Virus record (IMG/VR): IMGVR_UViG_3300030104_002091
Coordinates: 1 to 32,502 of that record
Strand: one strand, 5' to 3'
DNA: 32,502 bases
Origin: a virus
Below the pieces are notes generated by a model. It had not been told where the DNA came from and did no database searches. It saw only the letters and a program-made list of their open reading frames with translations. The translations under genes were made by a program, and so were the position numbers. This document shows positions 4,636 through 23,907 of this stretch, in pieces (positions within the stretch are counted from its first letter, which is position 1; each line of letters starts with the position of its first letter).

Positions 4636-4881
4636 ATGGTAACATATATATCAATAGCAATATTAGTAGCATTCATAACAATACTAATATGGAAAGATGT
4701 GACTTGCACACGAACAAAAACAAGGAGTTACCTTCCAGTTCAAAGTAATATGCCTTATCAACAAGCAATAGAAAGAAAGAAAGAAATAGATAAGTTGGTA
4801 GGTGAATTACAAGAAGGTGGTTGGGATTACACCAAATATAATATGATAAGTAGTATCAGAAGGAGAGATGATGATGTTTAA
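4636..4881 (+). CDS. Small membrane-anchored hypothetical protein
   Basis: The gene encodes 81 residues with one N-terminal membrane segment (about residues 3-19, ISIAILVAFITILIW) followed by a basic, polar cytoplasmic-type tail. A good ribosome binding site AAAGGAAA precedes the ATG. The end overlaps the next gene by a few bases. It has no recognised domain. An inner-membrane protein of this size in a phage early region could act on host membrane proteins or exclude superinfecting phages, but nothing in the sequence proves either role. Confidence 0.65.
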   Translation: MVTYISIAILVAFITILIWKDVTCTRTKTRSYLPVQSNMPYQQAIERKKEIDKLVGELQEGGWDYTKYNMISSIRRRDDDV

Positions 4882-5275
4882 CAACGATGAGATTAATGAT
4901 AGAACGGTGAAAGCATTTGATGAAGTAGTTGAAGAGATAGCAGCCACCACAGAAATGAAAAAGTGGGCAGAGTTTAAATTTGCTACACTTACAAAACAAA
5001 AACTTAGGGATGGTGCATTGGAACACGAAGCACAAATCCCTATTACTCTTGTAGAATGTCTTAAAGTTAACAGAGACAACTTACAAGAAGCAATAGAAGA
5101 AGGTGTTGATATGACAGTATATGTTGAAGCAGAGTCAGTTTTACAGACTCAACTTGATAACAATACAACATATGAATACCTTAAAATAGCAAAAAAGTAT
5201 ATGTATAAGGCAGTGTTTTATTTATTGCTAGCCTTATTTCATGATACAAAACCGAAAGGAAATGAAAATGAGTAA
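4871..5275 (+). CDS. Hypothetical protein upstream of the ubiquitin-like gene
   Basis: The gene encodes about 134 aa. Three ATG codons occur in a row (4868, 4871, 4874). With AGGAG at 4861-4865, the second or third has the better spacing. The product is mostly helical and acidic, with a hydrophobic segment YKAVFYLLLALF near the C-terminus and a polar tail. Its stop overlaps the next gene as ATGAGTAA, so it is translationally coupled to the ubiquitin-like protein. That makes it a possible accessory or target of the cassette. No domain is recognised. Confidence 0.7.
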   Translation: MMFNNDEINDRTVKAFDEVVEEIAATTEMKKWAEFKFATLTKQKLRDGALEHEAQIPITLVECLKVNRDNLQEAIEEGVDMTVYVEAESVLQTQLDNNTTYEYLKIAKKYMYKAVFYLLLALFHDTKPKGNENE

Positions 5276-5585
5276 CTCAACACAAGTAGAAGAGATTCTA
5301 TATAATGTAAATAACACTGGCTTTGTCAGTGCAACAGATCAAAGAGCACTTGCATGCAGTAATGTGCAAGAGTTTGTAGATTATCTTAGGGACGCAAGTC
5401 CAGCTTTGTATGAACGCATTAATTTGTCAAGTACAAAGATAAAAGTAAACTGGGAAGACAATGCAGTCTCTGGTGAATCACCAGCTGCTAATCTTCAAAC
5501 TGAACTTACTAGAACCAGTGCTACTGACGGTAGATGTATTATTGCATTTAACGAGCACACGGTAAAAGGTGGAGACGTAGAGTAA
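5268..5585 (+). CDS. Candidate ubiquitin-like modifier with Gly-Gly-Asp-Val-Glu tail
   Basis: The gene encodes 105 aa from the ATG at 5268, which has AAGGA six to seven bases upstream and overlaps the previous stop as ATGAGTAA. An in-frame start at 5241 is less likely. The C-terminus reads HTVKGGDVE, with Gly101-Gly102 followed by a three-residue tail. Precursors of ubiquitin-like proteins have this form: a peptidase removes the tail, exposing Gly-Gly for adenylation by an E1. A JAMM peptidase and an E1 lie three and four genes on in the same operon. The C-terminal half has strand-like segments (KIKVNWED, RCIIAFNEHTV) compatible with a beta-grasp fold, but I cannot confirm the fold from sequence alone. 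The function is inferred from tail and context. Confidence 0.6.
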   Translation: MSNSTQVEEILYNVNNTGFVSATDQRALACSNVQEFVDYLRDASPALYERINLSSTKIKVNWEDNAVSGESPAANLQTELTRTSATDGRCIIAFNEHTVKGGDVE

Positions 5586-5593
5586 ATACAACC

Positions 5594-5617
5594 GAGGGGC
5601 AGTTAACGCTGTCCCTC
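5594..5617 (+). other. Intercistronic hairpin after the ubiquitin-like gene
   Basis: GAGGGGCAG (5594-5602) and CTGTCCCTC (5609-5617) form a 9-bp stem with one G-U pair and the loop TTAACG. It lies 8 bases after the stop and has no U-run. It could slow 3' decay and raise expression of the modifier relative to the downstream enzymes. Confidence 0.6.
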
Positions 5618-5637
5618 ACAACTTAAGGAGAGATTAA

Positions 5638-7644
5638 ATGTGGACAGAAGTAGAATGGGATAAATTGGATATGGACATATCTGATGTATCCTCAGAAATG
5701 ATAATAGGTCCTAAGAACATAGTAATGAGAAAGATTAATGATTTCAATAGATACTTTACTCAAAATACTTATGTAAGTGGCAATAGAACTATGGTAGAAC
5801 CATTGCCACCATTATCATTTACAAGAACATATAGGTGGAAACCTGGATATATGAAAATTGTAAATGAAATCATTAGTAGTAGATTGTTACAACTACACAA
5901 AGGTGGTAGTTTGGAAACAAAGTTTAACAGAATGGATAGAGGTCAGCATCAACTCAGACAGTTGAGATCAAGACTCTTAGATATTGACGATCTTATGCGA
6001 GAGTTAAGACTAAGAAAAGCAACTACTGATCAAGATGTAGAAGCAGCAACAGAAAATATGCAGAATGTTATGGATATATTTCAAAACAAAACTAAAGAAG
6101 CAGATGAAATGTTTTCTTTGAGAGATGATATGGAAATATCTATGGTGTTTAAGTATTGGCAACCTAATACTTCACATTTAGATGAAGATGAACAGTTGTC
6201 AAGTTCTCAAATAAACTTATTGAAGTTTCTTACTGGACATTTATGTATGGCTATACATATGAAAGATCCAGAAATGGAAATACTACATAGCAGTTTTGGA
6301 GAACGAAGACAAGTAAAATCATATGGTAAGATTAAACTTGAAAATGATATATATGTTCTGTATCAGATTCCTTTTTATGCAATGTTTCAAGCATTGTATA
6401 TGAGAAAGTTTCATGATTTGCAAGCAAAAGATATTAATAATAACTATCAATATAGAAATATGATACAAGGATATCTAGGCGGACAAAATCTGGACACTTC
6501 TTATGAAGGACATGGAAGAGTACATTACAGTGGACTATCTACTGAATTGTTAGGTTGGTGTGGTAATAGTGAAAGCGGACAAAGATGTTTTCCATATATC
6601 AGTAAGGCTAGTTCTTATGGCGACGAATCAACTGGTTCTCCAGTTTTTGGTGCGTTTGATGTAAGTCATTATCCAACAAGCACTTGTTTTGGTAATATGG
6701 ATGAACATATTAGAAATGCATTTGTAAGATTAGATTTCTTATCTATTATGCATCTATTGCAACATTGGAATAGATATGATATACACGATACAAGACCTCT
6801 AAACAACTTACAAGAAAGTTTCTATACTTTACCAAAAGATAGAATACATTCTGATTTTATTAAAGATTATACAGATCTTAATATAATTAGAATACATGCA
6901 AAATTGTTTAAAGATGTTGATACAAGACATATGAGAGGGTTTTGGGAAGATAGTTATCATGAATATAAACTAGATGAAAGAGACCACTATGGTAGTAGAG
7001 AATATCGGAAAGAACAATATGCAATGTTAGATAAGTGTTGGTTACAAGAACCTGAAGCATCAAAAATTACAGTTGGTAATAGTAATGTTACACTTCGTGC
7101 AATGTTTGGCTGGGATTTTAGTATGCAAAACTGGATACCTAACAGTTTAGTTATTCAAGAAAATCTACATCAATTATATCTAATGCAAATATTAGATGAT
7201 GATAATTGCGTTGACGATCCAAAGGAAATAAGAGATCTACACATTACTGCTTATCAAGAATATATATATTCATTGGTAGATGCAGTTAAAAGAGTATTAG
7301 ATGAAGATCAATGCTTAACAGTAGGTCATGGATTATACGCAAAGATGGAAAATCTTTTAGATTTTGTAGATAATTTAGAATGGACTGAAATAGAAAAAAT
7401 GCATAGTGCATTTCAAGAAAAAATCGAAGACATCAACAGAAGATTATCAGATTTAGATATCGATAGACAACTTCCATTTACAGAAGAAGAAGAAGATCTA
7501 TATGAATCAGGTTATGATGATGAATTTGAATTTGAGTTAAACACAGTAGATTTTCCTGGATTAAGACCAGGTGAATCACCAATAGCATATGAACGAAGAT
7601 TAAATGCTATTTCACAAACAGAAAGAGAGGATAATGATGAGTAA
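5638..7644 (+). CDS. Large protein with a candidate E2-like conjugating region
   Basis: The gene encodes 668 aa with a strong ribosome binding site, AAGGAGAG. The layout is an N-terminal globular part (1-95), a coiled coil (about 95-165), a central domain (about 200-400) and an acidic C-terminus. The central domain contains FPYIS (318-322), then SHYPTSTCFGN (343-353), and about 20 residues later LLQHWNRYDIHDTRPLNN. E2 enzymes carry a His-Pro motif, a catalytic Cys in a C-[LF]-G-N setting, and a later Leu-Leu...Asn-Pro-Leu-Asn stretch. Here His344, Pro346 and Cys350 fit that plan, with a shorter His-Cys gap than in eukaryotic E2s. The E2 assignment is my inference, supported by sitting between a Gly-Gly-tailed protein and JAB and E1 genes. 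The other parts are not recognised and could bind substrates. Confidence 0.55.
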   Translation: MWTEVEWDKLDMDISDVSSEMIIGPKNIVMRKINDFNRYFTQNTYVSGNRTMVEPLPPLSFTRTYRWKPGYMKIVNEIISSRLLQLHKGGSLETKFNRMDRGQHQLRQLRSRLLDIDDLMRELRLRKATTDQDVEAATENMQNVMDIFQNKTKEADEMFSLRDDMEISMVFKYWQPNTSHLDEDEQLSSSQINLLKFLTGHLCMAIHMKDPEMEILHSSFGERRQVKSYGKIKLENDIYVLYQIPFYAMFQALYMRKFHDLQAKDINNNYQYRNMIQGYLGGQNLDTSYEGHGRVHYSGLSTELLGWCGNSESGQRCFPYISKASSYGDESTGSPVFGAFDVSHYPTSTCFGNMDEHIRNAFVRLDFLSIMHLLQHWNRYDIHDTRPLNNLQESFYTLPKDRIHSDFIKDYTDLNIIRIHAKLFKDVDTRHMRGFWEDSYHEYKLDERDHYGSREYRKEQYAMLDKCWLQEPEASKITVGNSNVTLRAMFGWDFSMQNWIPNSLVIQENLHQLYLMQILDDDNCVDDPKEIRDLHITAYQEYIYSLVDAVKRVLDEDQCLTVGHGLYAKMENLLDFVDNLEWTEIEKMHSAFQEKIEDINRRLSDLDIDRQLPFTEEEEDLYESGYDDEFEFELNTVDFPGLRPGESPIAYERRLNAISQTEREDNDE

Positions 7645-8548
7645 ATTCGTAATGAATCAAGACGATTGGAATACTATACAACAGTACTCTAGATATGCTT
7701 ATGATGAGCATGGTTCAGAGATTGGTGGATATATGCTTGTTAAAGAAGTTGATAACAAGTTTGTATTTACTGATCCAGTAATACTTGAACAAGAAATTTG
7801 TGCAAGTAATACAGAAATAACAGCAGACGCTGTTAGTGATTACACAGTTAAAATGGAATTGAAACATGGTAAAGGAGAGTATTGGTTATGTTGGTGGCAC
7901 AGTCATCACACAATGGGTGTGTTCTGGTCTTCTACAGATCATACAGCAATCAATCAACATAAATCAGTGCTTGGTAGATATACATTTAATTTAGTTGTAA
8001 ATCTAAAACAAGAACATATTCTTAGAGTATGTGATTGGAGAACTGGTATACAAACTGATGTTCAAATGGAAATAGGTAATCATGAAATACCAGATCATAT
8101 TATCAATGAAGTTGAAGAGAAGTGTACAAAGCCTAAACCTGTAACATATAGATATTCGACTAAGAATACACCTAATACATTTAACAATATGTATGGTGGT
8201 GGATATTACAATCAAATGAATATCTGGGCTACTGATAAAACAGATGAAGAAAGAGTACAGCTTGAAGCAAAGTTAGATAATATCTTACAAGACTATACTA
8301 ATGATTCTGATTATCCAAAGTACAGAAAAGCTGTAGGAAATTTAAATAGAAAACTCGGTAGGAATAAGAGTGAACTTAAAGTTCTTATAGTAGAGCATGA
8401 ACAACTTGCATCATGTGTACATTTGCTAATGGCAGATGATTACATTTATGCAAAAGGTGCTGATAAACCAAATATACAAGAGTTAACTGATTTTGAACAG
8501 TCTTTTGGTATTTCAAGAAGTATTAGTACGAAAGGAGAAATGAAATGA
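7637..8548 (+). CDS. JAMM/JAB metallopeptidase (deubiquitinase-like)
   Basis: JAMM enzymes are zinc isopeptidases that cut after the Gly-Gly of ubiquitin-like proteins, for maturation or removal. The gene encodes 303 aa from the ATG at 7637, which has AGAGAGG upstream and overlaps the previous stop. All motif residues are present: Glu28 (SEIGGYM), and HSHHTMGVFWSSTD giving His88, His90, Ser98 and Asp101 in the exact His-x-His-x7-Ser-x2-Asp spacing. The usual Pro after the second His is replaced by His91. The N-terminal 150 residues form the JAB domain. The C-terminal half is charged and helical, with no recognised domain. The stop overlaps the E1 gene as ATGA. The likely job is to trim the Asp-Val-Glu tail of the modifier at 5268 and to remove it from targets. 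Confidence 0.92.
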   Translation: MSKFVMNQDDWNTIQQYSRYAYDEHGSEIGGYMLVKEVDNKFVFTDPVILEQEICASNTEITADAVSDYTVKMELKHGKGEYWLCWWHSHHTMGVFWSSTDHTAINQHKSVLGRYTFNLVVNLKQEHILRVCDWRTGIQTDVQMEIGNHEIPDHIINEVEEKCTKPKPVTYRYSTKNTPNTFNNMYGGGYYNQMNIWATDKTDEERVQLEAKLDNILQDYTNDSDYPKYRKAVGNLNRKLGRNKSELKVLIVEHEQLASCVHLLMADDYIYAKGADKPNIQELTDFEQSFGISRSISTKGEMK

Positions 8549-9183
8549 ATGAGAGATATTCTGGATTAGTTAATAACTTTGATGAATATGCTTATCATTT
8601 CTTGGGTTGCGGCGCTATTGGTAGTGCCGCAGCTACAACTATGGTAAGAATGGGTGCAAATATGGTACATTTATATGATATGGATCGTGTTGAAAGCCCT
8701 AATATCGGTGTATCAATATATGATACTAATGATATTAACAAACCAAAAGTAGAAGCATTGAAAGATAAGTTGATAGCAATTAATCCAAGTGCATACATTA
8801 GTACGCATAATGGTGAATTTGAGAACATATTACAAGAACCTCGTAATGTGATTATTCTTGGATTTGATTCTATGAACTCAAGATTAGATGCAGTAAAGAA
8901 TATTCTGGGCTTAGAAAAACCTGAAATACTTATTGACGGTAGAATGGGTGCAGAGTATTATCAGCAGTATACATTTGAACGACCAACTCTTAAAGAATAT
9001 ATAAAGACTTGGTACGAAGATGATACAGCAGATGATGTACCATGTAATCAAAAAGCAACCAGTTATTGTAGCAATATGACTGGTAGTTTGATATGCAACA
9101 ATGTAAAAAAGATACTGAAAGATGAACCTTATATTAAAAATTTCTCTTTCAATTTTGTTACTTGTTCATTAGATTTACATTAG
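8545..9183 (+). CDS. E1/ThiF-family adenylyltransferase (modifier-activating enzyme)
   Basis: ThiF/E1 enzymes adenylate the C-terminal glycine of a ubiquitin-like protein. The gene encodes 212 aa, a minimal single domain. The nucleotide loop GCGAIG is at 21-26. The second strand ends LYDMDRVESPN with Asp45, Asp47 and Asn53. Lys66 and Lys68 follow, then GFDSMNSR with Asp108. The C-terminal third contains VPCNQKATSYC (Cys167, Cys175), which matches the position of the ThiF/E1 catalytic or zinc Cys. The arginine finger common after the Asn (Asn-x-x-Arg-Gln) is not evident. It lacks the extra domains of eukaryotic E1s. The strong AAAGGAG binding site is 7 bases before the ATG. It is the last gene of the cassette and is followed by a large hairpin. 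Confidence 0.92.
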   Translation: MNERYSGLVNNFDEYAYHFLGCGAIGSAAATTMVRMGANMVHLYDMDRVESPNIGVSIYDTNDINKPKVEALKDKLIAINPSAYISTHNGEFENILQEPRNVIILGFDSMNSRLDAVKNILGLEKPEILIDGRMGAEYYQQYTFERPTLKEYIKTWYEDDTADDVPCNQKATSYCSNMTGSLICNNVKKILKDEPYIKNFSFNFVTCSLDLH

Positions 9184-11596: not shown

Positions 11597-11847
11597 TGAC
11601 AGCTGAAGATATAGTTATTGCGTGGATTAAAAGTATTAAAGGTAAAAATAATATCTTTTATAGTTATGATTTGGAAGGTGCAATACCATTGTATGGTAGG
11701 TTAGCACACCAAAAAATACACACTGCAAGTACTTATGCTAGGGCATTTAGAAAGATACGTGAAAGTAATACTTTAAGAAAGCATGGCATAAAACTAGAAG
11801 AAGTTGAACATAAAAGTGGGAAAGTAAAAGGATGGAAAATAGGATAA
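11596..11847 (+). CDS. Small helix-turn-helix-like protein
   Basis: The gene encodes 83 aa. The order of helices followed by a Lys/Gly-rich end (HKSGKVKGWKIG) suggests a winged-helix fold: AEDIVIAWIKSIKG, then a loop, then GRLAHQKIHTASTYARAFRK as the candidate recognition region. It could be a DNA-binding helicase loader or regulator. It starts as TAATG on the SSB-like stop and overlaps the primase-helicase gene by 16 bases. The fold call is by eye only. Confidence 0.5.
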   Translation: MTAEDIVIAWIKSIKGKNNIFYSYDLEGAIPLYGRLAHQKIHTASTYARAFRKIRESNTLRKHGIKLEEVEHKSGKVKGWKIG

Positions 11848-13622
11848 TAGAGGTAGTTGAAGGTGGTGTACAGAAAAGAAATAAAATTTGTACATACACT
11901 GAATACTTAACAAAACAAAAAGCAAACGCTTTTAAGAAAGAGATGTATAGATCTTACTATTTGTTTGACAATACATTTCGTGATCACTTACTAAAACATA
12001 AAACAGTTAAAGGTTATAATGGATTAGTCTATCCAGATAAATTTATTATAGACCTTGACAAAGGAGATATTGATGGAGAAAACATGCAAAGCTATTTACA
12101 ACATACTTGTAATGAGTTGTTTGATTTTGGCATTGACAGTAGCCATATCAATATCTGGTTTAGTGGTAGCGGTTATCATATTGAGTTACTTAACGTATTT
12201 GGTTTTCAACCGAATAAAAAGTTACATGATAAAGTAAAAGCTACATTCAATAAACACTTTAGTTTTGGTGATAATATTTACGATAAGACAAGGATCATTA
12301 GATCCAACTGGTCGTTAAATAAAAAGACTAAACTGTATAAAGTTTGGATACCATTAGAAGATATATGGAACTTATCTTATGATGAAGTATGTTTATATGC
12401 ATCATCTAAAGAAGAGTATACAAAATATACAAAATCTAAACCAAACTTTTATGCAACATTTAATGATGAGAGTGCTTTTGTAGAACCTTATCTACAAACG
12501 TCAATAATATCAAGTGTAAACAAGAACATAGAATTAACACCAATGAGAAGCGGTGAAACTAATTCTGTTGTTACTTGTGTGCAGCATATATTTAATGAAG
12601 GACCTACTCAAGGTTCACGAAATAAAAATATGATGCGTATGGTAAGCTCTTGGAAAAGAGCTGGAATACCATTTATTGTTGCATTAAACGGAATAGCTAA
12701 GTGGTCTCAAGGAGAGTTAGATATATCTGAAATAGAACGCACTGTTAATAACGTATATGATAATCAATATATATATGGTTGTGATGATGCAATACTTATG
12801 GAGTATTGTGATCCAAAGTGTATTCATTTCAAACGTAAAGATTATGTATTAGATATTAGAGATGTTGATTCACTAGAAGATACATTCAAACAATACATAA
12901 CTAATGATCTAACCTCAAGGAGTATTAATATACAAGACATATTCGATGGTGCTCCTGATTACGTATTCAAACCAGGTGAGCTAGTAATATTTAGTGGTGA
13001 TACTGGTATGGGTAAGACTGCATTCGTTCAAAATATAGTAGCAAAAGCTAAGAAAGATACTTTATTCTTATCATTAGAGATGAATGAAATATTGATATGG
13101 AGAAGATTTGGACAGATCGCTGAAGAGAAAACAAGTGATTGGGTTATTAATCAATACAAAAATGATCCAGAGTTTTCTTTGAAAGATAAGTTAGATCATC
13201 TAAACATAATGGTGATTGCTCCTGAAATTGAAGCAGTAAAGAAAGTTGTAGCACAATATGAACCTAATGTATTAGTAGTTGATACTACTGATGAGATGCA
13301 AGTAGATAGGTTTGATGGTGATATACAAAAACAAAATGTTATTATAGATGCACTCAAACAGATTGCACAACGTAATAACACTTTGATATTTGCAATACAT
13401 CATTTGAACAAAGCTAGTGCTTCTCAAGGTACTATAGGATTACATTCCTTAAAAGGTTCATCTAATGTGGTACAAAAAGCAGATAAGGTAATTGTGATTA
13501 AAGGTAATCGTAATGAAGTATATCGTACTGTTATGTCTGAGAAATCTAGAGATGATGGTAGGTTAGAGTTTGTTACTGAATTTAATCCAAGCACTATGAC
13601 ATTTAAACGTATAGAAATATAA
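11832..13622 (+). CDS. Fused primase (AEP-type) and replicative helicase
   Basis: This bifunctional protein would lay down primers and unwind DNA at the fork. The gene encodes 596 aa. In the primase half, FIIDLDKGD holds Asp74 and Asp76, GSGYHIEL holds His116, and DKTRIIRSNWS holds Asp151 and Arg154; this is the motif order of archaeo-eukaryotic primases. A linker follows, with a Cys pair near 325-330. The helicase half has Walker A GDTGMGKT at 389-396, then FLSLEMNE, a Walker B-like VLVVDTTDEM, and AIHHLNK, the order of DnaB/RecA-type helicases such as T7 gp4. It lacks the zinc-ribbon TOPRIM primase of T7 and has an AEP primase instead. It is the largest plus-strand replication gene. Confidence 0.88.
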   Translation: MENRIIEVVEGGVQKRNKICTYTEYLTKQKANAFKKEMYRSYYLFDNTFRDHLLKHKTVKGYNGLVYPDKFIIDLDKGDIDGENMQSYLQHTCNELFDFGIDSSHINIWFSGSGYHIELLNVFGFQPNKKLHDKVKATFNKHFSFGDNIYDKTRIIRSNWSLNKKTKLYKVWIPLEDIWNLSYDEVCLYASSKEEYTKYTKSKPNFYATFNDESAFVEPYLQTSIISSVNKNIELTPMRSGETNSVVTCVQHIFNEGPTQGSRNKNMMRMVSSWKRAGIPFIVALNGIAKWSQGELDISEIERTVNNVYDNQYIYGCDDAILMEYCDPKCIHFKRKDYVLDIRDVDSLEDTFKQYITNDLTSRSINIQDIFDGAPDYVFKPGELVIFSGDTGMGKTAFVQNIVAKAKKDTLFLSLEMNEILIWRRFGQIAEEKTSDWVINQYKNDPEFSLKDKLDHLNIMVIAPEIEAVKKVVAQYEPNVLVVDTTDEMQVDRFDGDIQKQNVIIDALKQIAQRNNTLIFAIHHLNKASASQGTIGLHSLKGSSNVVQKADKVIVIKGNRNEVYRTVMSEKSRDDGRLEFVTEFNPSTMTFKRIEI

Positions 13623-13633
13623 AGGAAAACAAT

Positions 13634-13849
13634 ATGGAATATATATTCAAATACTCAAGTACAAATGAGTTGAACATAAAAGTTCACGATTTAAGATTTT
13701 TCAAGTTCTTCCGAATTGGAATGATGTTGAACAATAATCATGGACGTAGTATATCTTTATACCTAGGAGTTGGTGTTAAGCATCAATTAATCTTAGGTAT
13801 GCACAGATGGAATACAAAGTTAGACTTTGGACAACACTATGACGCATAG
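13634..13849 (+). CDS. Small hypothetical protein
   Basis: The gene encodes 71 residues. A strand-rich, aromatic product starts MEYIFKYSSTNELNIKVHDL and has His-rich turns near the end. AAAGGAAAA before the ATG is a good binding site. The end overlaps the resolvase-like gene by 11 bases. No domain is recognised. Confidence 0.6.
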   Translation: MEYIFKYSSTNELNIKVHDLRFFKFFRIGMMLNNNHGRSISLYLGVGVKHQLILGMHRWNTKLDFGQHYDA

Positions 13850-14174
13850 AAATAAAGTCCGTGGTAATAACCTTGAACGTGAAGTTGTAAACGCAGCTAA
13901 AGATGCTGGGCTCTCTGCAAAGAGGGCCTATGCCTCTGACGGTAGATCACTTGGTAAATCAGAAGTTGTAGATGTAATGGTAGAAGACTACTGTATACAG
14001 GCAAAACGTAGAAAAAGAATAGCTGAGTGGTTATATCCAGAGAATCATGGAGATGATGTAGATATAGTTGTAACTAGAATGGACAGAAAAGAAGCGTTAG
14101 CAGTAATACCATTGAAAGAATGGTTAAGATTAATTAAAATAGAAAGGGATAATAATGATGATCGAAATGAATAA
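13839..14174 (+). CDS. Holliday-junction-resolvase-like nuclease
   Basis: The gene encodes 111 aa from the ATG at 13839; a TTG at 13827 in the same frame is an alternative. The pattern fits a PDDEXK-fold resolvase of the archaeal Hjc type: NNLEREVVNAAKDAG (N-terminal helix with Glu), AYASDGRSLGKSEVVDV (Ser/Gly loop and Asp), then CIQAKRRK as the Q-x-K that replaces the usual E-x-K. The end is helical (DRKEALAVIPLKEWLRL). Such enzymes resolve branched DNA before packaging. The ribosome binding site is weak. The replacement of Glu by Gln is seen in some phage members. Confidence 0.72.
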   Translation: MTHRNKVRGNNLEREVVNAAKDAGLSAKRAYASDGRSLGKSEVVDVMVEDYCIQAKRRKRIAEWLYPENHGDDVDIVVTRMDRKEALAVIPLKEWLRLIKIERDNNDDRNE

Positions 14175-14709: not shown

Positions 14710-17700
14710 TTAATCTTCTGGAATAGTATCAAGCTCTTCTTCTATAGCAGCTTGCTCTTCCATTTGATCACGTCTAATTGAATGTAATCTTCTCAATGGT
14801 AATCCAGTCATAAAATCTACAGCCATAGCTGGACTATCGTAGGTCTTTTTTACGTCTCTGAACAGTCTACCAAAAGGAAAATATGTAGCAACTTGATATT
14901 TATAAAAGTTTTCCATATCACCATTTAATATAGCAGTGATAGGAGATAATACAAACCTAGCAATAGGAGGTGTTACGATCTGTAATGGTGCTAAGTATTG
15001 AGAAGGATATGAACTGAAGAATGCACGTTCTCTTTCTTTCTCATCACCAAACAATAATGCAGATGTATCTTGCAACCAGTTCATAGGCGGTGATAATGCA
15101 TACTCAAATATACTAGCAATAAATATATTACCAAGAGCTAATGCCATTAGATCTAAAGTAAATTGTCTTTCAAATCTTTTTTGAGATAATGTATCTCTCT
15201 TCCAACCTTCAAGCTTTGCATCTTTAACTATTTGTATACGTCTACCGATACTATTCCATGCATATGGTTGGAATCTAGTTAATACACGACCTAAAGATGT
15301 ATTAGCAAAGTTAGGCCTGAATGTAGCCTGATACATAAACTGTGATGTCTTAACACCTTTCATGGCAAAATCTGTAGCTACTGGACTATTAAATGGTATT
15401 CCATCAAATATTTCTTTACCTAAAATAGTTCTCATGTTTATATAGTTAGCCAAAAATGCAGTACCACGTAATCTACGTTCTGACCATTTCATTGGTAAAG
15501 CACCAGCTTCAACAATAGGTATCTCTACTTTTAGATATTCTGCTGTTTCTCTTAAAGTTCTTTTAGATTCAATATCATGTAATTCTTTAGAAGTTATTCT
15601 ACCTTCTTTATAAGACTTGTTCATACGTGATATAAACTCAACCCAAAACTTTTTAACACCCTGTCTACCAAAGTTTTTATCAAGAGAAACAAGATCTAAG
15701 AACATCTGATCATACACACCAATAGTTTCCATCCATTCATAGATTCTTTTCATACTATTTATTTGTACTTTTTGAACTTTACCATCTGGTCCAACTACAG
15801 AAAACTCTGCTTTACCTCCACCAAATAAATTTTGTATCATCCATTCAGAATCATTTGCTCTTCTAAATGCTTGCCAACCTGTATCAGATATGGTATTAAC
15901 AGTACCACCATATAAGTTAGTAATAGCTGTTTTAGGGTGTGATAATAGAGACAATAACTCAAACTTACCTTCTAAGTCACTCAACTGTCTTACACGTTGC
16001 ATAATAGCAAACTGTCTATCTTTAGCATTAGTAGGTAGTGGACCAAATAACTTACCACCAAAAGCTTTATCTATTTTATTAAAGAATCTTACTGCTACTT
16101 CATCACTTGTTAGATGATATAATGATCCATACTTACCAGTAGAGTTAACTCTTTCTACTAACTTATTAGCTCTTGAAAGTCTCAATGTTTTAATTTCTGC
16201 TTTAGTTTTTGCAACATCTCTGTTGTTTCTTTTAAATATTAACATTTGTTCATGTGGCATTACATCAATAGCTGCATCAAAATCTTTAATTAAATCTTTT
16301 TTATATCTACCAGTACCTTCTTTAGGCCCAGTCAAGCCATCTTTTATATACTGTCTTAAGAACTCTTGATCTTTCTTTTGTATACCATGTAAGTTCAATG
16401 CACGATATGTACTTAAACCCATCATATTTGTAAAAGAATCTCTCATATAGTTTGACCAATCAGCTGCCCAATCTTGACCTTTATGTACTTTGTCAAAATT
16501 TCTTAACAATATTTCAGATCTTAATCCAGCAAGATTTGTAAACCACATTTTAAATAATCCACTAGTATAAAAACGTACAGCATCTATATCTTTTTGATAG
16601 AATGGCATAAATATTTCACCTCTATTCTTAGTCATACTTGCTGCATAGTCACCAATAAATCCATCTAAATTAGGTCTTTCCATCATATCAGATATTTGTC
16701 TTTCTGCAGCTGCTTGTCCATTAGTAAGAGAAACACCTATCATTCTTTCAAAACCTGCTCTTAAATCTTTTTTATATGTTAAAGCTGCATCCATATGACT
16801 TACACCATCTATGTCCATCTTTGCTTGTAGATAAGTTGGTAGTAATTTTTTATTTTGTAATGCTAATTGAAATTTACTTTCAACATTACCTTCAATCCAT
16901 TCTGCAAGTTTGTCTTTATTAGCTTGGTATCTTCCATGTCCAAGTCTAGGGAAATAACCTTCTGCAATATCACCAACATAATATTTAGTATACTCACCCT
17001 TAGTTTTTGCTAACTCTTTTAATACAGTTTGCTTTACAATAAAAGCTTCTGATCCTTTTTGAGATACTTTACCTTTAGGATTACTAACATCAATACCCCT
17101 TGGTTGTAACATAAATTGTACTCTATCTCTTAATTCCATATGGTATTTAATAAATCTATAATCATTTACACTCATTAAATATTTACCAATATATTCTCTA
17201 TCAGTAACGTTTCTATTCATCATATCTTTATATAACAATGACACCCTTTTTTCGTTTATAATGCCTGTTTCTAGCAAGAAAGTTTGTTCAAGGTTACGTG
17301 AGTCTATATCTTTTGTTATAGAGTCTTTAAACACGCCTTTTACAACGAATGCACCATCTTTATTAGTACCATATGACAAACCTTTAACTTTCTGTAAGTC
17401 TACTAATGTTTTAGATAGTTGTTGTACGTTTGTATCTATGTATGTATTCTTAATACTTCTTAATAACTTAGATGTGTCAGATGCAATTCTGTCTACAAAC
17501 TGTTGTGGTTTTATAGGTGTTAAAGTACCATCTATATTACCCTGAGGTATATTAAATACAATTCCTTTATCTTCTAATTTTTTTATTGATGATTGAGTAT
17601 CTAAATAAGAATCTACAATATAAGTTCTTTCCCCCTCACCACCAACTTGCGTAGGAAACCTTGGTTTACCATCAGGTCCTGGATTGTATTCTATTTTATT

Positions 17701-20700
17701 TACAGCAGCTTGAAACAATAAGTCTCTATATTCTGCCATTGTTTTATCGGTAGTGTTAAAATAATAATATACACCATCAACTTTATCTTGTTGAAGTTTA
17801 TAAATAATTTTTTGGTATGTGTCAAATTTATCAATAGCTACTCTACCTGCTTCAAGAGTAGTAACAGGTACAGATATTCTCTTCTTAGATATTTCACCAT
17901 TCTTATCTAGCGTAGGTCTAGCATTAGTTTCTATTTCCATTCTATCTAAATTAAATAAATATTTAGCAGCTTGTCCGTATCCTAATGTTTGATCTATAGC
18001 ACTAGGTTTTCTAATTGCTTCTCTTTGTTTTTGAAATGCAGTTTTATTACTTAATAACATTTCTAAAGATTTATTAAACATAATAAGATCTTCGGTAGTC
18101 ATAGTCTCAAGTCTTCTTTGAACACCAGTTTGATTGTATGTTAATTCCATAAACATCTCTTCCAATCTCATTATAGTATCTGGATTTTGATACAAAGTTT
18201 CTCTAAGTTTTTTAATTTCTTTGCTAGCTCTATCTGTTAAAATAGCATTCTTATCAGACTCTACTCTAAATAAATATTCAAATTGAGGTATGAGTTCTCC
18301 TATATATCCATCTAAATTTTCTTGTTTAGTTTTTAATGTAGGAGCATCTTCTATAACTGTGTCAACTACTTTATCTTTATTACCAAAGAAATTAAACTTA
18401 ACTCTACCTTCTACTATTTCAAAGTTATTCTGATAAACTGTATTGTCAGATAAAGATCTATCAAATGCTTCAATACTAAATGTTGTTTTAAACTGCTCTT
18501 CAAATTTAATTGCATCATTATCCATAGTTTTTTCAGCTAGCTTTTCCCCAACTCTTTGTCCATTAGACTCCAACATTTTACGCATGTCAGCAAAAAAACT
18601 TTGTCTACCTTTATCACTAATACTTAGATAACTAGATATATTATCTACAACAGGTCTATACTTTGTTAGTGCTAAATTTTTAAAATATAAAGCTCTTGAA
18701 TAGTCTTCATTGTTTAATCTATCACCTTTTTTTATAAACTTACTAATTTTAGAATTTTCTTTTTCAATATCCAACAATGCAAGTTTTTGTATATCTGTAG
18801 TTGGTCCTTTTAAAGGGCTTGATTGTAACCATGTTTCTATAATAGGTTCTATATCTTTATAAATAGTAGGATATTTCTTTTTAAAATTTAATTTTATTCT
18901 TCTAATTAAAGTATTAACATCATTTCCAGACAACTCTAAATGTTTTTTACCAGGAAAACTTAAGTTATTACCTCTATCAAATAAAGACTTTATCATAAAT
19001 GTTTGATCTATAATATCTTTTACAATCATTTCAGCAGTTTCAGATCCATACTCATTAGGTTTTTTCTGTTGTATATCTCTAATAAACTGTTCTGACATTT
19101 TTAAACTTCTAAATATACCTTGATATTCAAAAACTTTTTGATGTAACAATCCTGGTTCATTAATAATTAAATTCAATGTATCTTTTGCTTCTAACTGAGA
19201 GTTGTAATTATCAGTTAATCCAAACCTTTGCAACAACGGATGATCAACTACAAGCTCTCTATATCTTAACACCAATGCTTTAGCTACATCATTAGAAGCA
19301 AAATCTTTAAAGTTTTTAGCATAAAATTTAAAAGGATTAATAACAAAATTAGGATAATCAACTAATGACTTTGCCATATGGTAGTAAAATCTATTTTGTC
19401 CTTTAAAAGTTTCTAAATATTTTTCTCCAATAGTAGTAGATATTGTTGGATCTGTTACATTTCTATTCCTATATCCAACAGAATGTATATCTTTAAATGT
19501 TTTTAATTCTGCAATTCTGTTAAAAGCATACTCATATTCATTGCTGTATCTATCAAATATATCACTTGTTTTTACTTGTTTTTCTAATCCTTTTTCAATT
19601 ACCATTTCAGGTTTACCTGTAATTTCAAAATGTTTACTCCAAAAAGTATCTAATATCTTATCATAGGTTGCTACCTTTGTAAAGTTTGCAGAGTCTGCCA
19701 TTAAATTAATACCTCTATATGTATCTAACTGCAACTCTTTTACAGAAGTTTTTAATTTTAATCCAATAGGAAACATTATACCGTCAATAAATGTAGTTAA
19801 TTTCATCTCTGGTAATCCCATAGCAGTATCCTGTTGGATAATATCAGCTATCATTTGCATACGATTAAATCCAGATACTACAAACTCAATATTCTTTTTA
19901 CCAATACGTGCATTTCTTGCTACATCAATTCTTAAATTGCTATTCATTAAATCTTCTAATGCTCTAGTACCATTTACTCCACCTTCAGATACTTTAATAT
20001 CTGGATATTGTTCAATTAGACTTTGCCATTCTTTACCCTGAGGAGTTTCAAAAGATAGTGCATCTTCATTATTTTTACCTGCTAATTCATTTTCATATTT
20101 TTTAAATACAGTCTTAAATGATTCAGGCATATTCTGATACATAAATACACTGTCAGCATCTTTATCTGCACCACCTAAATAATAATCTGTTTTAGAAGTG
20201 GTGACTACATTCATACCTCTTCTACCTGTGAATCCAACTACTTCTACAACACGTACACCACCATTACCACTATTAGGATTACGCATAATTAAAAATGTAA
20301 GACCTTCTCTTAGTTGATTTATTTCTGTACCAAACTGCTGTATATCATTCTTTATAATACTTAATCTATCAACAGCCTCTCCCAACTTCATTGGTTTTCC
20401 TGCTACAACTATAGGCATATCTCTAAAAGTTTCTCCTAATCTTATTTGATTATCTAACAATCCAGTAGCAGTTTCTGGATCAGCAGGTCCTAATTTACCT
20501 TCTACGCCATTTTTAACTCTAGGTTTTACTACTCTTCTATGACGATACTCTGTTAAACTTCTGTTAATAAAAGATAAATAAGGAGGAAATATAACTGAAC
20601 CCATATCATATCCAGTTTTAAACAAAGCATCTGGCACATCATATTTAACAAGTTGTTGTAAAGAAACATCTATTAAATCAGTAGCTTCCTGTATATTTTG

Positions 20701-23700
20701 ATGATAATCTTCACGACCTCTTTCTAATATTTTTCTTAATAGTTTTAATCCAAAAGGAGTTTTTATTTGTCCAGATTCTAACACTCTGTTTATTGAACCT
20801 AATGATATTGTATCTATATCATATTTATGAGTTAAGTCTTGTTTCGTAAAAGCTTGTTCAAAGTTTTTAGTTAAAGCAGGATCACCTATAATAGAAGATT
20901 CAATCATTCTATCGTAATCAGCTATAAAATTATCATAATCTTTACCTATCTGATCTTTATTTAACTTATCAAACATTTGTTTAGCAACTAATAAACCATG
21001 ATAAAGTTTATTAGGATTTTCATAAACACCATAGTTCAAATATAATTCTTCTGGTTTTATACCAAATGATTCTATGTTATCTTTAATAGAGTATTCTTTG
21101 GTATTATTATTCCAGTCTAATTTATGTTTCTTAATACCTAATGATGTTTTTGTTGCAGATTCAGCAGTAATAATATCAATCTTATTATCTACCATAAACT
21201 TATCCATAGCAGTAGTAGCTCTAAATGTACCAGTTTTAAATAATATAGTACCAGTTCCTTCTCTTGGAGCCTTAAAACCTACAAGCTTTAAAAAACCACT
21301 ATCTGGATCTCTGTAATTAGCTTTAGAAATAGCATCAAATACATCTTTTCTTACATAAACTACAGCATCTATAGCACTCTTAGAAGGTACTCCATCTACT
21401 TTAAATGTAGAAGGTATATCTTCTATCTGTACAACTCTCCACTCTCCGTTATCATCTAGTTTACCTTTATAATCTACGGACTCTAACTTTACTTCTTGAC
21501 CTTGAGCCAAGCTATTATACTTATTAAATTTTTGTACAGTCTCAAATAAAGGATTATCTCTAAACTTTTTTAATCCTTCGTTTAATTTCGTGTAAGTTAT
21601 TGGTTCATTAGCTTTTATATAACCAGCATCTAATAAAGAATAATAAATATTACTTGCATAATCTTCTGCTTGTATATCTGTTAGTTTATCCTGTGTAAAT
21701 AATTTATTATCTTTTAATAATTGTTTTTGTAAAGTAGTAGTAATTTCTGTGTCTGTAAATGGACGTTTGTGTAGTATAATTTCTCCAGTATCTTTAGCAC
21801 CACCATATATATAAAAACCTTGTTCTCTAGCAGAAAGGTTTAAATCGTTTAACATAGAATCTTTTAAATAATATTCAAACTTTTCATATAATACTTTTTT
21901 ATTCTTACCAGAACCTACTGTAATATCATTGTCAGAAAAATCTAAAATTTTCTTTCTACCAAATATAGGTACTTCTACTAATCCTTCTCCATCTTTTACC
22001 ATTAAACCAAACTTATGAAGTTTCTCTTGTATATAAGCTTGTCTAACAATAACACGTACTCTAGTACCACCTGCTATGTGTTCATTATATTTACTCTTTT
22101 GTCTTGGAGCACCAACTGGTTTATCTCCTATATCCTTCATAGGTTGTCTAGTAACAACTGGCTGACCACTACTAAAGTCTATCTCATAATCTTCTCTTAC
22201 TTGTACATTCTTTTTAAGTTTTAAATATGAACCTAATAATGATTCATTTACATTCTTAAAAAATTTCTTTCCATCTCCTATTTGTTGAGGATACTTTACT
22301 TTTAAAGCCTCTTTAAATTTAGGTAAACTATACTCACTTTCAACAGCAAGTCTTCCTAAGTCAACTAACAACTGATCTTGTCCTGTAGATATATTTTCTT
22401 TTCTAAGTTTTTCTACTAATGTTTTTATCTGTGGATTATTAATAGCTGGTTCATTTAAATCTTTTGCAGTAAGATTTACTAAATCAGCTAAATCCATTCC
22501 TAAGTTTTCTTTTATCTCTCTCTTAAATGCTTCCAACCCACTCTTATCTTTATCACTTAATACTGCTATATTTTCAACACTTTGCATAGCTTCTGCTATT
22601 TTAGTTTGTTCTACCTCAGTTTTAATTTGTTCCCATTGTTCACGAGTAGGTCTTGTAATACCTTTCTCGTCTAAGATAGCTTTAACTTCTGGTATTACAA
22701 CTTTAGTTATAGAAACATCTCTTTCAAATACTTGTTGTTGTATTAATGGTATTCTACTTTTTACATAGTCTCTATCAAATTTAGGTAATGATAAGAACTC
22801 TGGATCAGCTTCAAGTTCTCTTGTTAAAGTTTGTTCTGTTTTTTCTAATGAACGGAAACGTTCTGAATTTTTATTTAAATATTTAATTCTTTGTATAAAC
22901 CCTGCATCTCTAGCAGTAGCACCAAAGAAAGCTCCTAATAAATACTCATACACCTGTTCTGGTACAGGTAAATTTTGTGCAGTAGCCATACCACCTTGCA
23001 ATCCAGAACCAATAGCACCTTTAATAGCCATATTAATTCCTTCTAGTGTTCTGTCTTCTGCTGCTAACTCATCAGCTTTTCTACGAATAATCTTTTCACC
23101 AAGTTTTCTAGTCTTAGGATTAGCATATATACGTGCTACGTTTACATAATTACCAATAGTTCCAAACATACCACCTGCTATAGCACCATGTATAGCTGCA
23201 TCTGCTGCACCTTTAGCACCATCAGTCCAACTACTTACACCCATAGCTATACCTAAGTGTGCAGCTTGCTCTCCTATATCTCTAAACCTAGGACTTTTTA
23301 ATATACCCTTAGCAAGAAACCCGTCTTTTAATATACCAGCTTCTCCGAATGATCCCTTAGCCTGCTCTATAACTTTATCAGCTACCTTCATTGGTATTGA
23401 TTGTAAAGCAAAAGTATCTGTACCTATTTCTTTTCTAAATGCAGGAGGAGCTACATCACCAGCAGCACGTAAACCTTTCGTTACACCACCAGCTGCTTTT
23501 AAACTAGCACGTTTAGCTACAGCAACAGGTATATATTGACCCATAGATAGTGCACTAGCAATAACATCAGGAGCAAAACCAACAAGGTGTCCTACTTTAT
23601 TAGCTATGGATTCTATAGATGTATCAGGTTCGTCTGACCAGCCAAGCGTTGTAAAACCCTCAACTAGTCCAGATACAAATTGATTAGCAGTACTTATAAG

Positions 23701-23907
23701 ATTAGCATCAGCAACCTTTAAGTCTCTATTAAAATCAACACCAGTTTTTTTAAATTGTTTCTCTATATAATCTACTTCTTCTTCAGTAAAGGATGTAGGA
23801 TTTGCTTTATATATAGTATCAAGTTTTTGTAAAAACCTGTCTTGATTTATAATACCAACTTCAAGTTCCCTAATAGTTTGTTTTAATAATCGATTATTTA
23901 ATTTCAT
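14710..23907 (-). CDS. Giant virion protein with RNA-polymerase-like barrel motifs
   Basis: This single ORF of 3065 codons is over a quarter of the window. N-terminal residues 1-260 include Gly/Ala-rich segments typical of injected internal virion proteins. At residues 905-925 is NKIDIITAESATKTSLG, with Lys920 in an SAxK setting. At 1205-1255 is MRNPNSGNGG (Arg1209, Pro1211), then about 35 residues on, LGGADKDADSVFMY (Asp1248, Asp1250, Asp1252). This mirrors the arrangement in RNA polymerase beta-prime: Arg-x-Pro, then ADFDGD binding catalytic magnesium. The crAss-like phage virion polymerases and QDE-1-type polymerases have both barrels in one chain. The C-terminus contains SHPKTAITNLYGG (about 2650) and two hydrophobic segments (about 2910-2940 and 2970-2995) that could enter the membrane. 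The likely role is ejection plus early transcription. Polymerase activity is inferred. Confidence 0.75.
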   Translation of the reverse strand: MKLNNRLLKQTIRELEVGIINQDRFLQKLDTIYKANPTSFTEEEVDYIEKQFKKTGVDFNRDLKVADANLISTANQFVSGLVEGFTTLGWSDEPDTSIESIANKVGHLVGFAPDVIASALSMGQYIPVAVAKRASLKAAGGVTKGLRAAGDVAPPAFRKEIGTDTFALQSIPMKVADKVIEQAKGSFGEAGILKDGFLAKGILKSPRFRDIGEQAAHLGIAMGVSSWTDGAKGAADAAIHGAIAGGMFGTIGNYVNVARIYANPKTRKLGEKIIRRKADELAAEDRTLEGINMAIKGAIGSGLQGGMATAQNLPVPEQVYEYLLGAFFGATARDAGFIQRIKYLNKNSERFRSLEKTEQTLTRELEADPEFLSLPKFDRDYVKSRIPLIQQQVFERDVSITKVVIPEVKAILDEKGITRPTREQWEQIKTEVEQTKIAEAMQSVENIAVLSDKDKSGLEAFKREIKENLGMDLADLVNLTAKDLNEPAINNPQIKTLVEKLRKENISTGQDQLLVDLGRLAVESEYSLPKFKEALKVKYPQQIGDGKKFFKNVNESLLGSYLKLKKNVQVREDYEIDFSSGQPVVTRQPMKDIGDKPVGAPRQKSKYNEHIAGGTRVRVIVRQAYIQEKLHKFGLMVKDGEGLVEVPIFGRKKILDFSDNDITVGSGKNKKVLYEKFEYYLKDSMLNDLNLSAREQGFYIYGGAKDTGEIILHKRPFTDTEITTTLQKQLLKDNKLFTQDKLTDIQAEDYASNIYYSLLDAGYIKANEPITYTKLNEGLKKFRDNPLFETVQKFNKYNSLAQGQEVKLESVDYKGKLDDNGEWRVVQIEDIPSTFKVDGVPSKSAIDAVVYVRKDVFDAISKANYRDPDSGFLKLVGFKAPREGTGTILFKTGTFRATTAMDKFMVDNKIDIITAESATKTSLGIKKHKLDWNNNTKEYSIKDNIESFGIKPEELYLNYGVYENPNKLYHGLLVAKQMFDKLNKDQIGKDYDNFIADYDRMIESSIIGDPALTKNFEQAFTKQDLTHKYDIDTISLGSINRVLESGQIKTPFGLKLLRKILERGREDYHQNIQEATDLIDVSLQQLVKYDVPDALFKTGYDMGSVIFPPYLSFINRSLTEYRHRRVVKPRVKNGVEGKLGPADPETATGLLDNQIRLGETFRDMPIVVAGKPMKLGEAVDRLSIIKNDIQQFGTEINQLREGLTFLIMRNPNSGNGGVRVVEVVGFTGRRGMNVVTTSKTDYYLGGADKDADSVFMYQNMPESFKTVFKKYENELAGKNNEDALSFETPQGKEWQSLIEQYPDIKVSEGGVNGTRALEDLMNSNLRIDVARNARIGKKNIEFVVSGFNRMQMIADIIQQDTAMGLPEMKLTTFIDGIMFPIGLKLKTSVKELQLDTYRGINLMADSANFTKVATYDKILDTFWSKHFEITGKPEMVIEKGLEKQVKTSDIFDRYSNEYEYAFNRIAELKTFKDIHSVGYRNRNVTDPTISTTIGEKYLETFKGQNRFYYHMAKSLVDYPNFVINPFKFYAKNFKDFASNDVAKALVLRYRELVVDHPLLQRFGLTDNYNSQLEAKDTLNLIINEPGLLHQKVFEYQGIFRSLKMSEQFIRDIQQKKPNEYGSETAEMIVKDIIDQTFMIKSLFDRGNNLSFPGKKHLELSGNDVNTLIRRIKLNFKKKYPTIYKDIEPIIETWLQSSPLKGPTTDIQKLALLDIEKENSKISKFIKKGDRLNNEDYSRALYFKNLALTKYRPVVDNISSYLSISDKGRQSFFADMRKMLESNGQRVGEKLAEKTMDNDAIKFEEQFKTTFSIEAFDRSLSDNTVYQNNFEIVEGRVKFNFFGNKDKVVDTVIEDAPTLKTKQENLDGYIGELIPQFEYLFRVESDKNAILTDRASKEIKKLRETLYQNPDTIMRLEEMFMELTYNQTGVQRRLETMTTEDLIMFNKSLEMLLSNKTAFQKQREAIRKPSAIDQTLGYGQAAKYLFNLDRMEIETNARPTLDKNGEISKKRISVPVTTLEAGRVAIDKFDTYQKIIYKLQQDKVDGVYYYFNTTDKTMAEYRDLLFQAAVNKIEYNPGPDGKPRFPTQVGGEGERTYIVDSYLDTQSSIKKLEDKGIVFNIPQGNIDGTLTPIKPQQFVDRIASDTSKLLRSIKNTYIDTNVQQLSKTLVDLQKVKGLSYGTNKDGAFVVKGVFKDSITKDIDSRNLEQTFLLETGIINEKRVSLLYKDMMNRNVTDREYIGKYLMSVNDYRFIKYHMELRDRVQFMLQPRGIDVSNPKGKVSQKGSEAFIVKQTVLKELAKTKGEYTKYYVGDIAEGYFPRLGHGRYQANKDKLAEWIEGNVESKFQLALQNKKLLPTYLQAKMDIDGVSHMDAALTYKKDLRAGFERMIGVSLTNGQAAAERQISDMMERPNLDGFIGDYAASMTKNRGEIFMPFYQKDIDAVRFYTSGLFKMWFTNLAGLRSEILLRNFDKVHKGQDWAADWSNYMRDSFTNMMGLSTYRALNLHGIQKKDQEFLRQYIKDGLTGPKEGTGRYKKDLIKDFDAAIDVMPHEQMLIFKRNNRDVAKTKAEIKTLRLSRANKLVERVNSTGKYGSLYHLTSDEVAVRFFNKIDKAFGGKLFGPLPTNAKDRQFAIMQRVRQLSDLEGKFELLSLLSHPKTAITNLYGGTVNTISDTGWQAFRRANDSEWMIQNLFGGGKAEFSVVGPDGKVQKVQINSMKRIYEWMETIGVYDQMFLDLVSLDKNFGRQGVKKFWVEFISRMNKSYKEGRITSKELHDIESKRTLRETAEYLKVEIPIVEAGALPMKWSERRLRGTAFLANYINMRTILGKEIFDGIPFNSPVATDFAMKGVKTSQFMYQATFRPNFANTSLGRVLTRFQPYAWNSIGRRIQIVKDAKLEGWKRDTLSQKRFERQFTLDLMALALGNIFIASIFEYALSPPMNWLQDTSALLFGDEKERERAFFSSYPSQYLAPLQIVTPPIARFVLSPITAILNGDMENFYKYQVATYFPFGRLFRDVKKTYDSPAMAVDFMTGLPLRRLHSIRRDQMEEQAAIEEELDTIPED

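Follow-up and report, generated by a model that had tools for sequence, protein, structure and literature searches.

The stretch of DNA analysed here (the window; IMGVR_UViG_3300030104_002091, 32,502 nt) derives from a marine virus infecting bacteria, and its plus strand carries four neighbouring genes that read, in order, as a ubiquitin-like modifier, an E2-like protein, a JAMM peptidase and an E1. All four open reading frames that a preliminary description had reported at 5268-9183 were confirmed with the coordinates and strand it gave, as was its attribution of the set to a phage. The cassette, its active-site features and two neighbouring genes are laid out as follows.

5268-9183, plus strand: probable ubiquitin-like conjugation cassette (modifier, E2-like, JAMM peptidase and E1 genes, in that order)
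5268..5585, plus strand: ubiquitin-like modifier, 105 aa, C-terminus ...TVKGG followed by the three-residue tail DVE
5638..7644, plus strand: E2-like protein, 668 aa, with an N-terminal coiled-coil region and a C-terminal extension
6589..6600, plus strand: HPN-like motif FPYI, residues 318-321 of the E2-like protein (family H/F/Y-P-Y/F-I; P319 in 43/43, I321 in 39/43)
6685..6687, plus strand: candidate catalytic Cys350 (STCFGN) of the E2-like protein, invariant in 43/43
6793..6804, plus strand: RPLN, residues 386-389 (family NPLN/NPYN; P387 in 43/43, N389 in 38/43)
7637..8548, plus strand: JAMM/JAB metallopeptidase, 303 aa (Pfam Prok-JAB, 4e-6)
7718..7720, plus strand: JAMM glutamate E39, numbered from 7604, in 61/61 homologues
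7898..7939, plus strand: JAMM motif HSHHTMGVFWSSTD, residues 99-112, with H99, H101, S109 and D112 each in 61/61
8545..9183, plus strand: single-domain E1 of 212 aa, an adenylating enzyme of the ThiF type (Pfam ThiF, 1e-18)
9043..9045, plus strand: candidate catalytic Cys167 (DVPCNQKATS) of the E1, in 72/72
11832-13622, plus strand: primase-helicase, a neighbour of the cassette
13827-14174, plus strand: RusA-like resolvase, a neighbour of the cassette

The modifier was taken to start at the ATG at 5268, within a longer reading frame that opens at 5241; the JAMM reading frame opens at 7604, and homologues begin at the equivalent of its MSKF, near 7637. An ATGA overlap joins the JAMM stop codon to the E1 start and the E2-like and JAMM genes overlap by a few bases, so these genes are probably co-translated. 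All four are under purifying selection (dN/dS 0.11-0.37). The location in the plus-strand replication region was also as previously described, with the structural genes on the opposite strand; the flanking minus-strand genes are those for a P22-like portal, the large terminase subunit and an endolysin-like protein, together with a 3065-aa ORF and further genes of the structural arm. The 3065-aa ORF (14710-23907, minus strand) has no Pfam or PHROG match and probably encodes a virion protein. A 135-aa protein (VECLKVNRDNLQEAIEE; 4868-5275) immediately precedes the modifier, and we place it outside the cassette because a homologue is present in L124, a phage that lacks the cassette.

The identities of the peptidase and the E1 are certain, as Pfam matches (Prok-JAB, ThiF) and conserved active-site residues bear out the motif-based calls made earlier. 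The JAMM motif (E and HxHx7Sx2D) is complete, all of its metal ligands are invariant across 61 homologues, and the closest solved structure to the family profile is that of the proteasomal deubiquitinase RPN11 (E=1.5e-5). In the E1, the GxGxxG motif (G21, G23) and residues R4, K68, D108, R113 and C167 are retained in 71-72 of 72 homologues, and the family profile matches MccB, UBA5, UBA6, ThiF, MoeB, BubCD and Cap2 in the PDB. This E1 is built without a separate Cys domain, a feature that we counted against a conjugation reading.

The 105-aa protein had been proposed as the modifier on the strength of its C-terminal end, which reads ...FNEHTVKGGDVE, and family-level evidence for a beta-grasp fold, together with the conserved Gly-Gly, now sustains that call. 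The window protein alone returned nothing meaningful in Pfam, PHROGs, NCBIfam and PADLOC searches. The first match of the family profile in the PDB is MoaD (E=0.0037), Pfam ThiS is matched by 13 of the 41 members with E<=0.1, the lowest value being 5e-5, and nearly all homologues are single domains of 65-105 aa, many of them 65-75 aa long with a MoaD/ThiS-like pattern. Among the top 50 Foldseek matches of the AF2 model (pLDDT 74.7) in the PDB, nearly all are ubiquitin-like beta-grasp proteins, including ubiquitin, SUMO, UBX, LC3 and FAT10, at modest E values of 0.03-0.1. Gly-Gly followed by a tail of 0-21 residues is found in the 41 homologues of alignment A5, 20 of which end exactly at Gly-Gly. 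Because modifiers beyond the nearest 13 were chosen partly by Gly-Gly, its presence in all aligned members is not independent, and the fair figure is the 41 of 43 loci with sufficient sequence that have a Gly-Gly ORF just upstream of the E2-like gene; 2.7% of other ORFs carry GG within their last 10 residues. Assignment of the 105-aa protein as a ubiquitin-like modifier with a predicted beta-grasp fold is thus well supported. Two variations occur at this position: in L059 and L063 the E2-like, JAMM and E1 genes are intact and a short Cys-rich ORF occupies the upstream position, where no recognisable modifier was found, a point against the conjugation reading, and some close relatives of the window carry a 75-aa ORF (MAEKVKTCGINKEKGYLYYLNI...; L001:7790-8017, L005:7368-7595), absent from the window, between the modifier and the E2-like gene.

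Assignment of the 668-aa protein relies in part on its active-site pattern, which in the family reads (H/F/Y)P(Y/F)I, then C(L/F/V)(G/D) after some 10 to 65 residues, and P(L/Y)N after a further 37 or so. In an alignment of 43 proteins P319, C350 and P387 are invariant despite a mean column identity of 15%, and members other than the two closest relatives are 14-36% identical to the window protein. Residue 318 is H in 24 of the 43, and Y or F takes the place of the N of HPN. Canonical E2 enzymes carry HPN(I)...GS(I/V)CLD and, later in the chain, DPLN. The shortest-loop form of the family, HPYIAVRGYDYGSVCLDKY in L079, resembles this pattern, and RPLN of the window protein is comparable with its DPLN. 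The corresponding motif is SHPHDASSDGSCRMCLG in L104, a MAG contig with identical gene order, and NPHIYYNRCLG in L103. In the AF2 model (pLDDT 79.5), DSSP assigns a helix at 189-199, four strands within 201-245, then the Cys and a helix at 352-363, a predicted order compatible with a UBC domain but with an insert before the Cys.

Searches for known relatives of this protein gave a different picture. A UBC fold in the predicted 668-aa structure had been named beforehand as a test, and Foldseek did not see one: the full model returned noise from the PDB (E>=0.8), and against BFVD its only significant matches were six unnamed viral proteins. Family profiles of the full length and of the cores found no known E2 in the PDB or Pfam, and Pfam, PHROGs, NCBIfam and PADLOC searches with the window protein alone were empty. 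Support for the earlier E2 call comes from the active-site motif, from the secondary structure predicted for the protein and from the place of its gene. Because of these Foldseek and profile results we continue to infer the E2 identity, and consider the 668-aa protein probably an E2-like enzyme. A further cysteine, C559 (LDEDQCLT), is conserved in 42 of 43 members within the C-terminal extension, and is possibly a second catalytic or a structural Cys.

The undetected UBC fold, together with a modifier profile nearest to MoaD/ThiS and a single-domain, ThiF-like E1, could also be accommodated by a sulfur-carrier pathway, in which adenylation by the E1 would allow sulfur to be loaded on a ThiS/MoaD-like carrier, the JAMM peptidase would trim it, and the 668-aa protein would be a sulfur acceptor or an unrelated enzyme. 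We consider this unlikely, as the neighbouring proteins searched contain no match to rhodanese, cysteine desulfurase or ThiG/MoaE, the large Cys protein, with its HPYI...C, keeps its place between the modifier and JAMM genes, and the JAMM peptidase is nearest to RPN11.

The reading of the four genes as one unit, already suggested from the window, is upheld by their distribution. A related E1 is encoded in at least 298 IMG/VR stretches, a lower bound from a scan with two peptide patterns. The JAMM gene lies immediately upstream of the E1 gene in 71 of 72 distinct loci, the contig ending at the 72nd, and the pairing is therefore far beyond chance. An E2-like gene precedes JAMM at 50 loci; marine loci that lack one end at or near the JAMM gene, and within the marine family of the window it is there at every locus with sufficient sequence. 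The order E2-like/JAMM/E1, with genes overlapping or abutting, is conserved across highly divergent phages. Loci that are distant in one of the four proteins tend to be distant in the others (Spearman 0.41-0.66 between pairwise distances), and none of 500 permutations reached any of the observed values.

The cassette itself is an accessory module, since near relatives of the window phage lack it. One terminase family is common to all 14 of the long contigs with the cassette, which suggested that the cassette might be core to this phage group; a terminase-anchored survey rejected that possibility, with an E1 in only 2 of 14 terminase-selected contigs having >=7.5 kb on the right side, some of which are incomplete. 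L124, whose terminase is 81% identical to that of the window, has homologues of both cassette flanks with other genes between them. The E1 is about 50-57% identical to the window E1 whether terminase identity is 80% or 33-37%, a sequence comparison that fits with phages having exchanged the cassette.

The resemblance to the Bil system noted in the preliminary description is retained for gene content and order and is lost for domain make-up. Bil (BilABCD) shares with the window a set of four genes in the order modifier-E2-JAB-E1 (the window E2 being putative), with the Bil order read from the letters A-D and its contents from PMC11354881. In Bil, the modifier BilA contains two Ubl domains, BilD combines an inactive and an active adenylation domain with a Cys domain, and BilB has a CEHH motif (PMC11354881). 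The window modifier, in contrast, has one Ubl domain, and the 212-aa E1 has one ThiF domain, with neither a second adenylation domain nor a Cys domain. The window cassette further differs in the HPN-like motif before the Cys, the 668-aa length of the E2-like protein and its carriage by a phage, and the homologues show no conserved E or H after C350, where CEHH has E, H and H at +6, +8 and +13 from the C.

Among the type 6 operons (6a-6e), described in bacteria and not in phages (Iyer et al. 2006; PMC1779556), type 6d shares with the window a standalone Ubl with a C-terminal Gly, an E2 with a conserved Cys, a JAB and an E1. It differs in an extra conserved helical enzyme-like gene, in a JAB N-terminal domain, and in an E2 that has no upstream His, a downstream His serving in its place (PMC1779556). 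The E1 adenylation domain of type II CBASS (Cap2/Cap3) is detectably similar to the window E1; Cap2, however, combines E1 and E2 in one fusion protein and acts on a CD-NTase, whereas the window E1 is unfused, and no CD-NTase Pfam domain was found among the neighbours searched. The E1 profile matches Citrobacter BubCD of the Bub system at 2.6e-5. Against the PRTRC ThiF model TIGR03736 the E1 scored 13.8 bits, below the cut-off of 144.75.

Phage-borne Ubl and JAB proteins also co-occur in lambda/T1 tail clusters (PMC1779556), and a set of the lambda-type tail-assembly kind (TAPI/TAPK) might account for these two genes in the window. The lambda/T1 sets lack an E1 and an E2 and place the JAB in TAPK, often with NlpC/P60 (PMC1779556), in a tail-assembly context. 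The window cassette has an E1, has neither tail-gene context nor a JAB-NlpC TAPK, and sits, within the early replication arm, on the strand opposite to the structural genes. Such a tail-assembly role is very improbable, and the contrast drawn earlier with these proteins is justified.

Within a phage collection, most E1 homologues belong to crAss-like phages (in the records examined, Steigviridae) and to Flavobacterium phages such as FpV4. crAss001 gp79-gp78-gp77-gp76 follow the cassette order, with primase and uracil-DNA glycosylase genes nearby, and in both crAss001 (gp76-gp79) and FpV4 the JAMM and E1 genes are homologous to those of the window and keep their order. The marine profiles detect both crAss proteins, the JAMM at 2e-9 to 6e-5; tblastn searches of the phage collection with the JAMM and E2-like proteins of the window gave no match. 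Upstream of JAMM and E1 in crAss001 and FpV4 lie genes for a protein with GYMHSH...C(T/L/I)G and for a beta-grasp-like one whose first domain ends KSGA/KSGG. In crAss phages, proteins with compatible motifs occupy the E2-like and modifier positions; hhalign comparisons of the marine and crAss families at these two positions were not significant. Unlike the window modifier, the crAss modifier-like proteins continue beyond KSGA in a long C-terminal extension, towards the end of which an MF is conserved. The crAss001 and FpV4 records, from gut and fish-pathogen phages, annotate these genes as thiamine biosynthesis, metalloprotease or hypothetical, the crAss001 E1 (L013) being named thiamine biosynthesis protein ThiF. 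Literature searches linking crAss phages to ThiF or ubiquitin turned up nothing relevant, and the main text of Yutin 2021 and of the crAss001 paper is silent on the crAss cassette.

Taken together, these data favour, with a probability of about 0.72, a complete phage-encoded pathway of ubiquitin-like conjugation and deconjugation, probably productive, that is carried as an accessory early-region module. We infer its catalytic steps as follows. The JAMM peptidase would trim the variable modifier tail and expose Gly-Gly, with about half of the modifier homologues apparently encoded already mature. The single-domain E1 would adenylate the modifier Gly-Gly and may hold the modifier on Cys167, from which it would pass to Cys350 of the large E2-like protein. 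The extra N- and C-terminal regions of the latter probably choose the target and stand in for an E3; the modifier would then be attached to protein amines, from which the JAMM peptidase could remove it.

The same genes could instead serve counter-defence, with modifier, JAMM and E2-like protein jamming or reversing a host Bil, CBASS-type or Bub system and E1/E2 activity either unneeded or used in making decoys. Bacterial conjugation systems do counter phages (PMC10097602; Bil as cited in PMC12135933), and the cassette occupies an accessory, swappable site adjoining early genes. The E1 catalytic residues and C350, however, are all invariant, exceeding what a decoy needs, and the four genes co-vary. 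Because every step of conjugation and removal is encoded and the active sites are strongly constrained, we find a productive pathway likelier than a decoy; counter-defence is slightly less probable than sulfur transfer. For the productive pathway, the accessory nature of the cassette and its place in the early arm favour a function in conflict over an essential one. Host or competitor proteins met during infection rank first as the presumed target class, at somewhat under even odds; the phage's own replication proteins are a considerably weaker candidate, and a host conjugation defence is weaker again. More speculatively, and with the balance tilted against it, the marine tailed and crAss-like phages may share a lineage of ubiquitin-like conjugation peculiar to phages, with a minimal single-domain E1 and a large, target-picking E2-like protein, a swappable weapon that would tag proteins of the host or of rival phages in the course of infection.

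A literature search, mainly of open-access journal papers, found no paper describing the phage cassette. Bacterial ubiquitin-like conjugation has been described mainly as cellular machinery and, recently, as anti-phage defence. A conserved full conjugation set in phages turns this usual direction, of bacterial defence against phages, around. Its function is directly testable, since crAss001 and FpV4, with homologous E1 and JAMM genes in a matching arrangement, have cultured hosts.

Related sets also occur on two MAG contigs. The contig filed as a Vicingus MAG (L104:2921-6072) carries modifier-like, E2-like, JAMM and E1 genes in the order of the window, its modifier-like ORF ending GIKGNL without Gly-Gly. 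On a Betaproteobacteria MAG contig (L103:3243-4265), the E2-like, JAMM and E1 genes precede an ORF resembling a reverse transcriptase (YADD motif).
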